DNA from: Hydra vulgaris
Lineage: Eukaryota; Cnidaria; Hydrozoa; Anthoathecata; Hydridae
Assembly (NCBI RefSeq): GCF_038396675.1
Contig: NC_088931.1
Span: 73,375,001 to 73,439,000 of the forward strand
Direction: 5' to 3'
Length of the DNA: 64,000 nt
Shown piece after piece: positions 12,489-23,092 of the stretch (position 1 is its first letter; every line of letters starts with the position of its first letter). Under the pieces are notes generated by a model that did not search any database, was not told where the DNA came from, and saw only the letters and a program-made list of their open reading frames with translations. A program made the position numbers and the translations under genes.

Positions 12489-12808
12489 CCTAGCGGGCAC
12501 GGGTATGTTCATTGTACATATTGTACAGACGTCCAAATGAGAACGTGCAATGAACTATCTTTTGGACTTATGTCCAATAAGATCGTTCATTGCACGTTTT
12601 CGTATATACGAAGAAAAAAAAGATTTTGAGCCTATTTGGAACAAAAACACTAAAGTCAAATTTAACCATTCTTGTATTTTATTTTATTTATTATATTTGT
12701 AATGTATTACATTTTGGGTGAAGAACCTTACTTGACTTTTTGCTTTTTCTTTTTCTTGACTTACGTAAAATGACTGACACAAAAATAAATAAAACAACTC
12801 ATGTGGGA

Positions 12809-15433
12809 TCATAAAGATTTATTATGAAAAAAATCTTCCTCCTCAACAGCTTTACCATCACCACGACCACCACCATCTTTTCTGTCAGGAGCACGTTTCA
12901 GAATATTGCCAATAGAATGGTGCACTTCATGTATAGTATACTTCGTCATAGGATCTAAAATATAAAACTATTACATACTAACTGATCAAAAACAAGTAAA
13001 ATACTTTAAACGACATTTTACTTTTTTTCAAAATGAGAACAAATTAACTTGCCGAATAATTTTAGACATCAAATATATGCAAAGAAACGTGCATATCTTT
13101 TAAATATATTAAAACTTTATTAAACAGTTAATACTCTCTCAAAATTAAATAGACTCTATTTATTAATAAAAACATTAAAAAATGTGAAAATAACATACCT
13201 GTAATTACTCTTATGACGTTTGTTTTCTTGAAAGCTTTCTTGTGTTTACCCTCCATGTTGTAACAAGCCATCAACTTGTTGGTCATAAGCCTATTATAAA
13301 AATTTTGTTTTAACTTAAAGTTTCTTAATGCATTTGGGTTAATTTGTACTAAAACCTGTTTTTTTATTTTATTTAAAAAAAAAAAGATTAAACGCTGCTA
13401 TCAGTAAACTTTTTAAAAGCAAAAAAATAATTTTACATAGCTAAAATTTTAAAGAAGGTATTAACAACTAAGGTTTAAAGAACAGTATTTAACAAACTTA
13501 CATTAATAGGATAGCTTTGACATTTGCATGACATGAACTGCCACCAACCATTATTAATTGTCTTTTCTTAAATCAATATAATATATTATTATATATTAGA
13601 ACTTATATATATATATATTATATATTATATATATATATATATATATATATATATATATATATATATATATATATATATATATATATATATATATATATAT
13701 ATATATATATATATATATATATATATATAGATAGATAGATAGATAGATAGATAGATAGATAAATAGATACAAACATACATACATACATACATACAAACAT
13801 ATATACATACATTATCACTTACAAGAAGCTGATGTTTTACTACATCAGAAAGTTCATTATCAAACTTTTCAAATTCTTCTAAATCATCAAATTTTTTCAC
13901 ATGATATGAAGAATGTTCCAGTTCATAATGTGCCCCAATCTTACACTGCTCTTCAAGAATTTGTATGAGCAAATGAATTACTTTGTATTGGAACTCTAAA
14001 AATAAACATCAAACTGTCCTATAGATGTTTATTATGTTAATAATAATCACATAAACATCATAAAAACTATCATTTCTGTCAAATATTATCAGATTGAATC
14101 TAGAAATACTAAGGAAATATTAAAATGTTTGGCTATAACTGCATATCGGAAGAGTCTCTTTTGCCATTAAAAAAAATTATTATGGTATTTTAACTATTTA
14201 CAAGTGCTTGTCATAACAATGTATAATTTGTTTAAATTTTTATGCTTCTAACATATTTATCTTTCCATATAAAATAGTAATTAAATAAGGTTGAATACAA
14301 ACAATTTAACAATAAAACAACTAACAACTTAATCGCTTATTTTTATATAATAATTTACAATAACTCTTTTGTTTATTAGATTTTTTTCAAAGATGAAATA
14401 AAATTAAAAAAAATGAAAACTTACTAGCTTCAGGAAGAGGAAATCTAGACATGGAGAATTTTGGAGAGACTTTACACTTTGGTGGAGACACTTTCTTTAG
14501 GATTAGAACTTTAAATACAGTAGGTGATGTAAAGTTAGGACAAGAGCTTGGAGTTGAAGGTATCAAAACTGCTTCTGTGGAGGTATTTGAAGCAAAAGAT
14601 TTTATAGCTGGTTCAGTAGAGTCTGAAGCAAGCTTTGAAATAGCAAGAGATTGTGAAGCTTCAGGATTTTGTAAAGAAAATAATATTAGAGCTTTTTCTT
14701 TTTTACTAAATGCAGCTCCATGAACTCTTTCAGTCCCAGAACTTGCACCTTTAAATGTATGGATAGATATATTAAAAGGAGATCGTGACCAAACTCTGTT
14801 TAAAGTAGGCTTTTTAGGACATGTAGCTAAATAAAGAAAAATTTATATATATCTTAAATATATATCAAAATAAATGTGTGTGCTTGTTATATATATAAAT
14901 AAAGAAATTACAACTATGCATGGTATTTAATTTGAAAATAAAAATAGTGCAAACTACATAAATCAATTAAACAATAGAGCATACATATTAAATTTTCTGA
15001 TTTTCAGCTTCTTTCTTATTTGAGGATGCTTCAGATTCATCACTTGTGAAATAAAAAACCTTCACATACTGATCTGTCATCTAAATTTTATATATATGTA
15101 TGTATATTAAATATATATATATATAAAATTTATATAATTTTTAATTTATAAAAATAAATTTACATTGTTAATTTTATATCATGGACATACAAATGAGATC
15201 GAGAAAATATCAATACCACAATACTTACTACGACGACACTTTTCCTTAAGGAGCGAAAAGCAAAACCAATCATTCTGAGGTATTAACTGTTGTTTACATG
15301 CTTTTATAACATTAATACCTTTAGGCCATTGCACAAACTGCCTTTCATTTGGAGCTCCTTCAACCCACACTGAAAGGATTTTCAGCTCTTCTTCAACTGA
15401 CCCTTCCAGCCATACTGCTCTACACCAAGACAT
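12809..15433 (-). CDS. Seven-exon gene for a DUF4806-domain protein
   Basis: Exons on the minus strand: 15433-15229, a doubtful exon 2 (about 15073-15000), 14826-14425, 13995-13823, 13566-13502, 13290-13199 and 12954-12809 (stop TGA 12809-12811). Exons 3-7 have GT donors (GTAAGT or GTATGT) and AG acceptors, and their reading phases join exactly. Exon 1 encodes [12 protein letters not shown], then [14 protein letters not shown], like the N-terminus of proteins that carry DUF4806. Exon 3 is a Ser/Pro/Lys-rich linker. Exons 4-7 form the DUF4806 domain: [64 protein letters not shown]. Exon 2 meets a TAA before any good donor, so it may be damaged. The (TA)n/(GATA)n tract 13620-13800 lies in intron 4. 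Function is unknown; such genes are often found inside transposons. The location suggests an accessory protein of the composite element (inference). Confidence 0.8.
13604..13803. repeat. (TA)n, (GATA)n and (CATA)n compound microsatellite
   Basis: About 120 bp of TA, then GATA repeats (13729-13760), then CATA repeats. It lies in an intron of the DUF4806 gene; the long Tyr-Ile frames it produces are artefacts. Confidence 0.95.
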
Positions 15434-15588
15434 ATTTCTTTTACTATAATAGAAGCAATGATATAATTATATCATAATAAAAACAAATATAAAAGAGATC
15501 TAGACATAAAAAGAAATTTTTCTCCCAATTATTTATATAAATAAGCTAGTTTATAGATCTACATTTCAAGTTCAGAAAAAAACTAAAA

Positions 15589-16867
15589 TTAAATTTTTTC
15601 ATCATTGTGTAGTAATGGAAATATTGATAAACCTCTTTTTTCATTCAAACAAAAATATTTCTTTTGAAAATCTGCACAACTTAATGTTCTTTGGACAACT
15701 TTATTAAAATGTTTGGTGCAAAACAATGATATATTAAACTGCATTGATGGAGCTAAAGTATCCAAGACATTGTCTAAATATTTAGTAATAATAACATTAC
15801 ATTGAAAGGTACTATCATTGTTCTTAGCCTTTATAAAAGCAATAGAAGAGTTGTGGAGCAAAAAACAACTCTCTTTTCTGTTAGCTGAAATTTCCTAAAG
15901 TTTCTAAAGTTTTTTTAGGTAATTTTCTAAAAAAATGTTGATACTCAGATAGTCATTTTGAAACTTGAGACACACTGGATTGGAAGAATTCCGTATGTTT
16001 CTTTTCATTCTTTGAAGAAAGTTCTTAAAACGAAAACATGATATTATGTTAAGAGAACATGAATGATTACAAGAACCGTCAACCAAGTGCAAAAGATTAT
16101 GCAAATTATAGACTGTAAATATGTTGCCATATATATGTTTAGCTTCATTCACAAAATACTTTAGTAAATCATTTGCATTATCTAAATATGGAACACATAG
16201 ATGGTCATCATCTTCTAATAATATGGTCATTGCAATACTTAGGACCAAAAAATGTTCATACAACTTCTTTGATACTATACCTCTTAATGCAACTGGACCA
16301 GTATATAATAAATATTGTCGAAATTCTGTCGCTTTCCATCTATCCAAGGCATTTAAACTTCTAGGTTGCCGAGCAAACTCACTTGGTATACATCTATTAT
16401 TACTCACTAATACTTGAGATACCTCTGAAACTTGAGCAGCAGATATTTTCCCTCCTGGTCCTTTTTTCAGATAATTTAAGATGCGACACATTACACCTAA
16501 ACATACAAAATGCATGTAATCTAGTGTGAAAGAGTAAACGCAATCAGTTCCAATTCCAGTTAAAGGAGACATTGATTGTTGATGATTATTTTGATATCTA
16601 AACTGTCCAAAAGTAATTTTTTCTCTCAATTGAAAATGTTCATCTTCATTAAATACCACTCTTCCTTCATGTGTTCCATGAATAATGCAACTTCGCAGGA
16701 ATAATAACCAGAATGAGGGACTATACACTTTAAAAAGGCTCTGGAAGGTGCATCACAAACATGCAAGAATTGGCCACATCTGCATACTTGATGATTTAAA
16801 AAGAGGAATTACATCAATATTTATTGACAACTTGATAATATTACCAACAACATTTTTTTCACTTAGT
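15589..16867 (-). pseudogene. TNP2/DUF4218-like transposase, middle and C-terminal parts
   Basis: Reading down from 16867, the frame gives NVVGNIIKLSINID, PLFKSSSMQMWPILACL and DAPSRAFLKCIVPHSGYYSC, then continues in the 274-codon frame 16728-15904: MSPLTGIGTDCVYSF, FTLDYMHFVCLGVM, FARQPRSLNALDRWKA, FRQYLLYTGPVAL, VYNLHNLLHLVDGSCNH. The D-YMH and HNLLHL...F.F motifs are those of TNP2/DUF4218 proteins, the transposases of En/Spm-like (CMC) elements. A last piece (15895-15589; FLLHNSSIAFIKAKNN ... FPLLHNDEK) resembles the C-terminal part of the same family. Stops near 15900 separate the two. The N-terminal exon is displaced to 22.4-22.8 kb by a nested insertion and rearrangement. The superfamily name is inference from motifs. 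Confidence 0.75.
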
Positions 16868-22345: not shown

Positions 22346-22375
22346 TTAATTTAAAATTTTCATGGCACGTACCTA

Positions 22376-22430
22376 ATTTAAAGGAATTAAAAGTGTTCTA
22401 AGTCTTAGAACACTTTTAATTCCTTTAAAT
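22376..22430. repeat. Perfect palindrome at the exon edge
   Basis: ATTTAAAGGAATTAAAAGTG plus TTCTAAG, one central base, then the exact reverse complement (27-bp arms). It lies between the transposase N-terminal exon and TAGGTACGT, and it is missing from the inverted copy at 17.1 kb. Confidence 0.9.
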
Positions 22431-22830
22431 ATTCTATAATATTCATAATCCCCACCATTTTCTTTCTAATGGTATTTTTCTTGGTGTTTTAAAAAGAGTT
22501 CTTGCATCATTAGGAAAAGGACAACCATTTTCACGAAGGAAAGGTAAAAGTTCATTAACAGACGAACGAGTCCAACGATTTCTAGTTGCGCATTGAGCAA
22601 GCTGTTTATCTAATGATGACATTTCACCCTCATTAAAATCATCACTACTGTAACAATCTGTATTGTTACTATCAAATTCACTACTGTTCGGATAATAGTC
22701 ATCAGTTAAGTAAGCATTATCGCATTAAAAAATATTGTCTGACATACTTATACTCTCCAATAATTCATTGTCACTATTCACTGAATATAAGTCATCAAAT
22801 TCTTTTGATTTTTTGCAAAAACACCACGAT
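22380..22830 (-). pseudogene. TNP2/DUF4218-like transposase, N-terminal exon
   Basis: Minus-strand frame from about 22825: SKEFDDLYSVNSDNELLESI, an acidic start; one in-frame TAA near 22730; then DNAYLTDDYYPNSSEFDS and LDKQLAQCATRNRWTRSSVN, ELLPFLRENGCPFPNDARTL, FKTPRKIPLERK. A one-base slip then leads to GGDYEYFRIFKGIKSVL. This order (acidic leader, LA.WA-like helix, LL.LR, P.DARTL..TPR) is that of the N-termini of the same transposase family as 15.6-16.9 kb, so the two parts were once one gene. It ends in the palindrome at 22376-22430. Confidence 0.7.
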
Positions 22831-23092
22831 ACTTACATAAGATGCCCGCTTTAAAAGGTGATAATATATAATAGGTGATAACGCCAAAGTTTGTTTTTTT
22901 ATAAACATTCACAAAATATATATTGAAGTTTAGTTGTTATTTTGGAATTTAAATTTAAATATTATTTAAATATTTAATTATTAATTTCAATATTATTTAA
23001 AAAAATTTTAAGGTTCATTTCTAATCCGAGAACGGACGAACGACGTTTGGACATGCAATGTACGTACATTGTACGAGCTTGTGCCCGCTGGG

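Follow-up and report, generated by a model that had tools for sequence, protein, structure and literature searches.

The element described here lies in a 64-kb window of the Hydra vulgaris genome (C12:73375001-73439000; positions given without a contig are those of the window, and loci and contigs are designated by L and C numbers). Two terminal inverted repeats face each other at positions 12489 and 23092, and between them, on the minus strand, lie a transposase gene and a seven-exon gene whose predicted product resembles the DUF4806 domain family. An initial annotation, made from the sequence of the window, had proposed this arrangement, and both genes and both ends were found as it had described them, the ends being exact at 12489-12500 (plus strand) and 23081-23092 (minus strand). 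The copy belongs to a large family whose members repeatedly carry a transposase together with a DUF4806-like gene, and we regard it as almost certain that this is a two-gene transposon, with the second gene belonging to the element. Read along the minus strand from 23092, the order is 5′ end, N-terminal part of the transposase, foreign insert, inverted fragment and palindrome, C-terminal part of the transposase, seven exons, and 3′ end:

23081..23092, minus strand: terminal inverted repeat CCCAGCGGGCAC, the 5′ end relative to the genes; subterminal type CACAAGCACGTACAATGTACGTACATTGTACGTCC
22446..22724, minus strand: N-terminal part of the transposase (LLPFLRENGCPFPNDARTLFKTPR), 83% identical in L010
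17127..22374: foreign insert of ~5.25 kb, bounded by facing AGGTACGT ends and containing separate plus-strand open frames; not part of the element
16697..17037: near-perfect palindrome of 341 bp (99% identity) within the transposase gene
15592..16752, minus strand: C-terminal part of the transposase, divided between two frames (15904-16752 and 15592-15894), with a conserved Glu changed to Lys
15433-15229, minus strand: exon 1 of the second gene, the part used for genome counts
15080-14985, minus strand: exon 2, frameshifted in this copy
14826-14425, minus strand: exon 3, 402 nucleotides
13995-13823, minus strand: exon 4, 173 nucleotides, with the FQYKV.. segment and the start of the DUF4806-like domain
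13566-13502, minus strand: exon 5, 65 nucleotides
13290-13199, minus strand: exon 6, 92 nucleotides; the frame holding it scores 17.1 bits against Pfam DUF4806
12954-12809, minus strand: exon 7, ending in the stop codon TGA; 88-92% identical in amino acids in L010 and L009
12501..12601: subterminal region that includes an ACGT motif and, at about 12539-12601, an imperfect palindrome of 61 bp
12489..12500, plus strand: terminal inverted repeat CCTAGCGGGCAC, the 3′ end relative to the genes; subterminal type CACGGGTAYGTTCATTG

Allowing at most one mismatch, the terminal 12-mer has two matches in the window, both of them ends of the element; shuffled windows contain a mean of 0.03 such matches, and a single shuffle in 100 reaches two. 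Across the genome searched (911.5 Mb, 15 contigs), exact CCYAGCGGGCAC occurs 481 times (235 + 246), whereas its reversed control is absent (0 + 0), and for this reason we take the ends to be real. The end type at 12489-12500 recurs in L009, L010, L011, and L061, and that at 23081-23092, with small differences, in L004, L005, L010, L011 (= L034), L038, L039, L051, and L053.

The coupling of transposase and second gene extends well beyond the window, as the initial annotation had supposed it might. All of the following counts rest on the matches listed and include the window itself. They use exon 1, since the DUF4806-like domain of the second gene is split over exons (it spans four of them); a six-frame search with the DUF4806 model PF16064 was dropped as a genome-wide counter. 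Among 30 loci from the transposase search, L034 and L035 being two arms of one palindromic locus, exon 1 lies no more than 1.5 kb downstream in 28; L030 has later exons instead, and L044 is without exons in reach. One exon query, after merging 141 transposase places to 137 and 112 exon-1 places to 103, put exon 1 at a distance of 287-3165 bp downstream of the transposase, in the same orientation, at 63 of the 137 listed transposase places, with none upstream and two in opposite orientation within 10 kb. Broken down by transposase identity to the window copy, the pair is present at 34 of 37 places at 60% or above (the window among them), 12 of 30 in the fifties, and 17 of 70 in the forties. When a second exon query is added (112 + 150 exon-1 places, merged to 190) the count becomes 77 of 137, with none upstream and one opposite within 5 kb, where 0.07 pairs are expected. 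Further transposase queries were then included, with 21 of the 66 places of one listing judged new and taken in (a separate pairing count used all 66); exon 1 now follows on the same strand at 88 of the 159 listed places, with none upstream, one opposite, and fewer than 0.1 expected. Counted in reverse, a listed transposase stands beside 88 of the 190 exon-1 places. L010 and L065 are scored in these counts as lacking exon 1 despite the presence of other exons, exon 1 being truncated or masked. Close copies that regularly lack the gene, the finding that the initial annotation had named as contradicting it, were not seen: 34 of the 37 have exon 1, and L030 keeps later exons. Some short copies have these ends but carry neither gene, which fits non-autonomous derivatives.

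Individual loci give the same picture. The pair at C2:71.53 Mb (L048 and L060) is intact, a 675-codon open transposase frame being followed by a seven-exon gene with an uninterrupted frame of 329 amino acids; its exons 4-6 are 173, 65, and 92 nucleotides long, equal to those in the window, and the intron phases, taken from exon lengths, agree. An eighth exon considered for this gene would introduce a stop, and seven fit. L010 (C1:14490471-14495020, 4.55 kb) repeats the order of the window element from end to end without the insert, flanked by the target duplication TC and with exon 1 truncated. L065 combines a canonical end, an open 668-codon transposase frame, and the tail exons of the second gene. 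In the 3.0-kb L009, at least exons 3, 4, 6, and 7 of that gene survive, along with 42 amino acids of transposase in the opposite orientation. In a young group of 14 exon-1 copies at least 95% identical to L067, the transposase is 0.7-1.1 kb upstream in 13. Pairing persists in subfamilies whose transposases are about 45-60% identical, and the distant subfamilies L066 and L067 have both exon 1 and later exons. An apparent fusion of exon 1 into a 1756-amino-acid frame at C8:44557307 was set aside, the frame being a masked run of N. At C9:2785278-2789909 (in L059) lies a nested member of 4632 bp, with the duplication CT, transposase pieces, and the last exon; upstream of it is exon 1 from the second gene of a different member. 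L011/L012 (C2:3408200-3424500; also L034/L035) consists of two mirrored copies forming an inverted repeat ~15 kb across.

The window copy itself is a dead, decayed transposon. The transposase expected between the ends is present, though in pieces, split by the foreign insert, the 341-bp palindrome, and a 93-bp inverted copy (17033-17125 with 22424-22516); palindrome and inverted copy mark a fold-back rearrangement inside the gene. The Glu common to the seven other alignment rows that cover its site is Lys here. The fit of exon phases that had been claimed for the second gene holds in part: with boundaries placed by eye, each of the six introns has GT..AG borders and the seven exons total 1179 nucleotides, a multiple of three, but exon 2 is frameshifted and contains in-frame stops, the frame being regained by exon 3. 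It is on the split transposase, the lost Glu, and the frameshift that we call the copy dead. Its intron between exons 4 and 5 includes a long (AT)n and (GATA)n run (about 13600-13740). The insert at 17127-22374, with frames of 208, 142, and 123 amino acids and no convincing Pfam match, is apparently another transposon. At the edge of the window, a second, distant transposase remnant (62985-63956, minus strand, three frames) is 23% identical to the first and likewise lacks a convincing Pfam match.

Full members have open transposase frames of about 610-675 codons, and their alignment contains the motifs IDGLPL, CDAPAR, a C..C pair, and PFENFLQ. IDGLPL, CDAPAR, and PFENFLQ look like a D..D..E set, and the order of the motifs, judged by eye, is one that we take to recall TNP2-type DDE enzymes. 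Naming the transposase by Pfam was tried and abandoned: the L048 frame has no match at E ≤ 10, and that of L055 matches only DUF1229 and ERCC4, weakly (E 0.04-0.14). TNP2 (PF02992) exceeds its cut-off at five other places in the genome, none among the listed places of this transposase, and a profile comparison (hhalign) with one of these Pfam-positive TNP2 frames gave a weak match (probability 12%, E 0.0024). Relatives of the transposase were absent from phage records, and none of 75 pattern matches in viral contigs was confirmed.

The predicted second protein consists of an N-terminal W-rich segment, a linker, an FQYKVLHLL segment, a BEN/DUF4806-like domain, and a tail. DUF4806 is its top Pfam match in four of five copies (22.9 bits at C2:71.5 Mb, 21.0 in L065, 19.6 in L067, and 17.7-19.6 in the window), in a matching register and within profile positions 9-81 of 90; the fifth, a C7 fragment (L066), has no Pfam DUF4806 match. 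Residues 198-269 of the C2:71.5 Mb protein align with profile positions 9-79 of 90 (E 1.1e-4), so most of the profile is covered. Since all of the scores fall under the curated cut-off, we use the name DUF4806-like; the earlier label thus survives as the best-matching family, and by Pfam's own cut-off the protein, judged from its sequence, is DUF4806-like and not a full DUF4806. DUF7272 was rejected as a name for part of the protein: it reaches 20.9 of 27 bits, in a match confined to residues 36-69 of the C2:71.5 Mb protein. PMC11075544 cites Pan et al. 2023 as describing DUF4806 (PF16064) as a BEN subtype. The second protein looks like a DNA-binding protein, and we consider it likely that it binds DNA.

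A target duplication of 2 bp flanks nine of the 12 paired elements examined, and one of 3 bp flanks none; inverted ends, target duplication, and dispersed copies together characterize a DNA transposon with terminal inverted repeats. Just inside the ends, the tetramer ACGT is abundant. The subterminal 88 bp of 44 distinct ends contain a mean of 4.07 (range 0-8), compared with 0.29 in mononucleotide shuffles, which preserve base composition only, and 0.18 per 88 bp in the window. Spacings between pairs of ACGT concentrate at 10-11, 20-22, 30-32, 41-42, and 52 bp, with few between. The 44 ends form five clusters (8, 33, 1, 1, and 1), and in the two large ones the tetramers are phased at about 10.5 bp; among cluster representatives, 11 of 13 neighboring spacings deviate by at most 1 bp from a multiple of 10.5, where random placement gives a mean of 2.5 and none of 5000 trials reached 11. 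The bases between the ACGT cores vary among families (ACGTTGGAATA, ACGTCTTATGG, and ACGTACAATGT) while the spacing stays constant at 10-11, a pattern to be expected of sites that a protein contacts along one face of the helix. Among the short relatives of these ends are palindromic mini-elements of ~97-111 bp (L003, L008, judged by eye, and L017-L021), which consist of little beyond the two ends and ACGTT repeats spaced at 10-11 bp and are flanked by 2-bp duplications.

Between some subfamilies, nonsynonymous substitution (dN) is lower than synonymous substitution (dS). Comparisons of L050 with members of the window group give a transposase dN/dS of 0.22-0.35 over 11 loci and an exon-1 dN/dS of 0.11-0.24 over 10, L030 lacking exon 1; every pair includes the L050 branch, and the values are hence non-independent. 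Within the window group, the closest listed exon-1 pairs range from 0.25 to 2.27, a scatter as for copies no longer under selection, and these values were discarded as uninformative about function. In 26 of 28 copies, which are related, a YAG trinucleotide precedes the exon-1 ATG by no more than 25 nucleotides, versus 46% of control ATGs from the same loci. According to PMC12220107, Hydra transposon transcripts use trans-splicing; perhaps both genes share a transcript that is separated by trans-splicing of a spliced leader to the YAG preceding exon 1.

That the genes travel as a pair is an observation; what the second protein might do is suggested by analogy. We favor, as the probable reading, a transposon with a transposase and an end-binding DUF4806-like accessory, in the manner of maize TNPD and TNPA. 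The transposase would cut at the 12-bp ends, and the second protein, whose translation would start a few hundred base pairs downstream of the transposase, would bind the subterminal ACGT motifs recurring every ~10.5 bp; lined up on one face of the helix, it could pair or mark the ends, and possibly also regulate the element, which would match the part played by TNPA alongside TNPD in maize En/Spm. The separate parts of this proposal deserve different degrees of belief. The second gene is very likely of use to the element. Binding to the ACGT arrays seems rather probable, and that the protein would be required for transposition we think only slightly more probable than its opposite.

A number of observations weigh against this reading. 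The frames of L048 and L055 match neither TNP2 nor DUF4218 in Pfam, so the initial annotation's TNP2/DUF4218 label for the transposase stays a putative one; the profile comparison is weak as well. No DUF4806-like copy tested reaches the curated cut-off of 25 bits (15.6-22.9 bits). The best PDB sequence match of a five-row profile of the second protein, a BEN domain (BEND6, 7yul), speaks for the reading, but its E of 0.23 is not significant. In the six-frame genome search, PF16064 exceeds its cut-off at one place, C2:38547728-38547913 on the minus strand (30.2 bits), near no listed transposase or exon-1 place and possibly a host gene or another lineage. The target duplication anticipated from the initial annotation is found in most paired elements, as given above, and is lacking at the window copy (flanks ta / at), L009, and L002, all three among the 12. 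No exon 1 accompanies 71 of the 159 listed transposase places, and no listed transposase 102 of the 190 exon-1 places. Some transposases may lack the second gene; the unmatched places may reflect incomplete listing and a short exon query that misses distant relatives, or they may be real. L048 compared with L054 and L056 has a transposase dN/dS of 0.27 and an exon-1 dN/dS of 0.53-0.61, the latter a weak signal of selection; for L054 against L056 the two values are 0.36 and about 1. The ACGT phasing comes from three of the five cluster representatives, the singletons L014 and L036 holding zero and one ACGT; one cluster takes 33 of the 44 ends; and the 3′ end type of the window shows one to three ACGT where printed.

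The last of these points bear on the possibility that the phasing reflects no protein binding and goes back to a single tandem-like or palindromic end sequence that was copied from family to family. The dominance of one cluster speaks for it, as does the counting of the palindromic mini-elements from both sides; the bases between ACGT cores nevertheless differ while the spacing stays at 10-11, and we think this account unlikely. We are more doubtful still of a DUF4806-like protein that is encoded by the transposon yet regulates its transcription, or acts as a chromatin or anti-silencing factor, and does not bind the ends. BEN-type domains are reported to be chromatin-related in host proteins (PMC11075544), and plant TNPA also regulates (PMC2613891). 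On the other side, the phased arrays adjoin the ends, and mini-elements of 98-119 bp with scarcely any other content retain them, an indication that they act at the ends in mobility.

It is very improbable that the second gene is a captured host gene and a functionless passenger. DUF4806 genes are numerous in Hydra (counts of 54 and 69) and rare in other cnidarians (0-6), according to a table in PMC7642931, and the many exon-1 places without a listed transposase might be read in the same sense. A recent capture would stay in one subfamily, however, and the gene occupies the same place in subfamilies with transposases ~45-60% identical, with dN below dS against L050. Finally, a chance neighborhood of two unrelated degraded genes between unrelated ends, which the missing duplication and large insert of the window copy might bring to mind, is opposed by L010, where the order recurs without the insert and with a target duplication, and is refuted for practical purposes by pairing at 77 of 137 and then 88 of 159 listed places where less than one would be expected.

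We know of no function for DUF4806. If the end-binding reading is true, this domain acquires a concrete and testable role, with a predicted binding site, ACGT about every 10.5 bp beside CCCAGCGGGCAC, and the element becomes an animal equivalent of TNPD and TNPA in maize, with a second protein of a very different type. An accessory role could also explain why Hydra has so many DUF4806 genes and other cnidarians so few. No paper tying DUF4806 to a transposon gene was found in the literature searched, and an earlier mention in Repbase or in Pan et al. 2023 is possible. One may speculate, and we do so tentatively, inclining to doubt, that DUF4806 is at root a transposon protein, the end-binding accessory of a large animal transposon lineage that forms a helically phased filament on ACGT arrays, and that many animal DUF4806 genes, and perhaps some of the BEN family of chromatin factors, either reside in such elements or descend from them by domestication.

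PIF/Harbinger and other two-gene animal transposons combine a transposase with a Myb-like or other DNA-binding partner. The Hydra element resembles PIF/Harbinger in having a transposase and a separate, putatively DNA-binding partner; its transposase, ends, and partner domain are unrelated to those of that group. DUF4806 (PF16064) is the best Pfam match of the second protein, which differs in scoring below the cut-off and in being transposon-encoded. CMC-EnSpm repeats are listed among the putatively active DNA elements of Hydra (PMC12220107); they come from the same kind of genome, and the part of that paper available describes no second gene or DUF4806 for them. The closest parallel is with maize En/Spm (TNPD/TNPA) and soybean Tgmt*, in which there is likewise a transposase and a second, spliced, non-transposase product, and in which short terminal repeats are followed by subterminal repeats (here ACGT, in the two large end clusters). 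In maize En/Spm, TNPA binds the subterminal repeats and both TNPA and TNPD are needed, and from one CACTA element to another the TNPA-like proteins show little resemblance (PMC2613891). A different domain in the TNPA role would therefore fit. Unlike En/Spm, the Hydra element gives its second protein a start codon of its own downstream of the transposase, and the two transposase frames scanned (L048 and L055) lack a Pfam TNP2 match. Its ends are CCCAGCGGGCAC/CCYAGCGGGCAC, not CACTA or CACTG, and its target duplication is of 2 bp, not the 3 bp of plant CACTA elements. Because it has neither the terminal CACTA nor the 3-bp duplication we do not class it as CACTA; a CACTA-like way of working, by analogy with these systems, is plausible.

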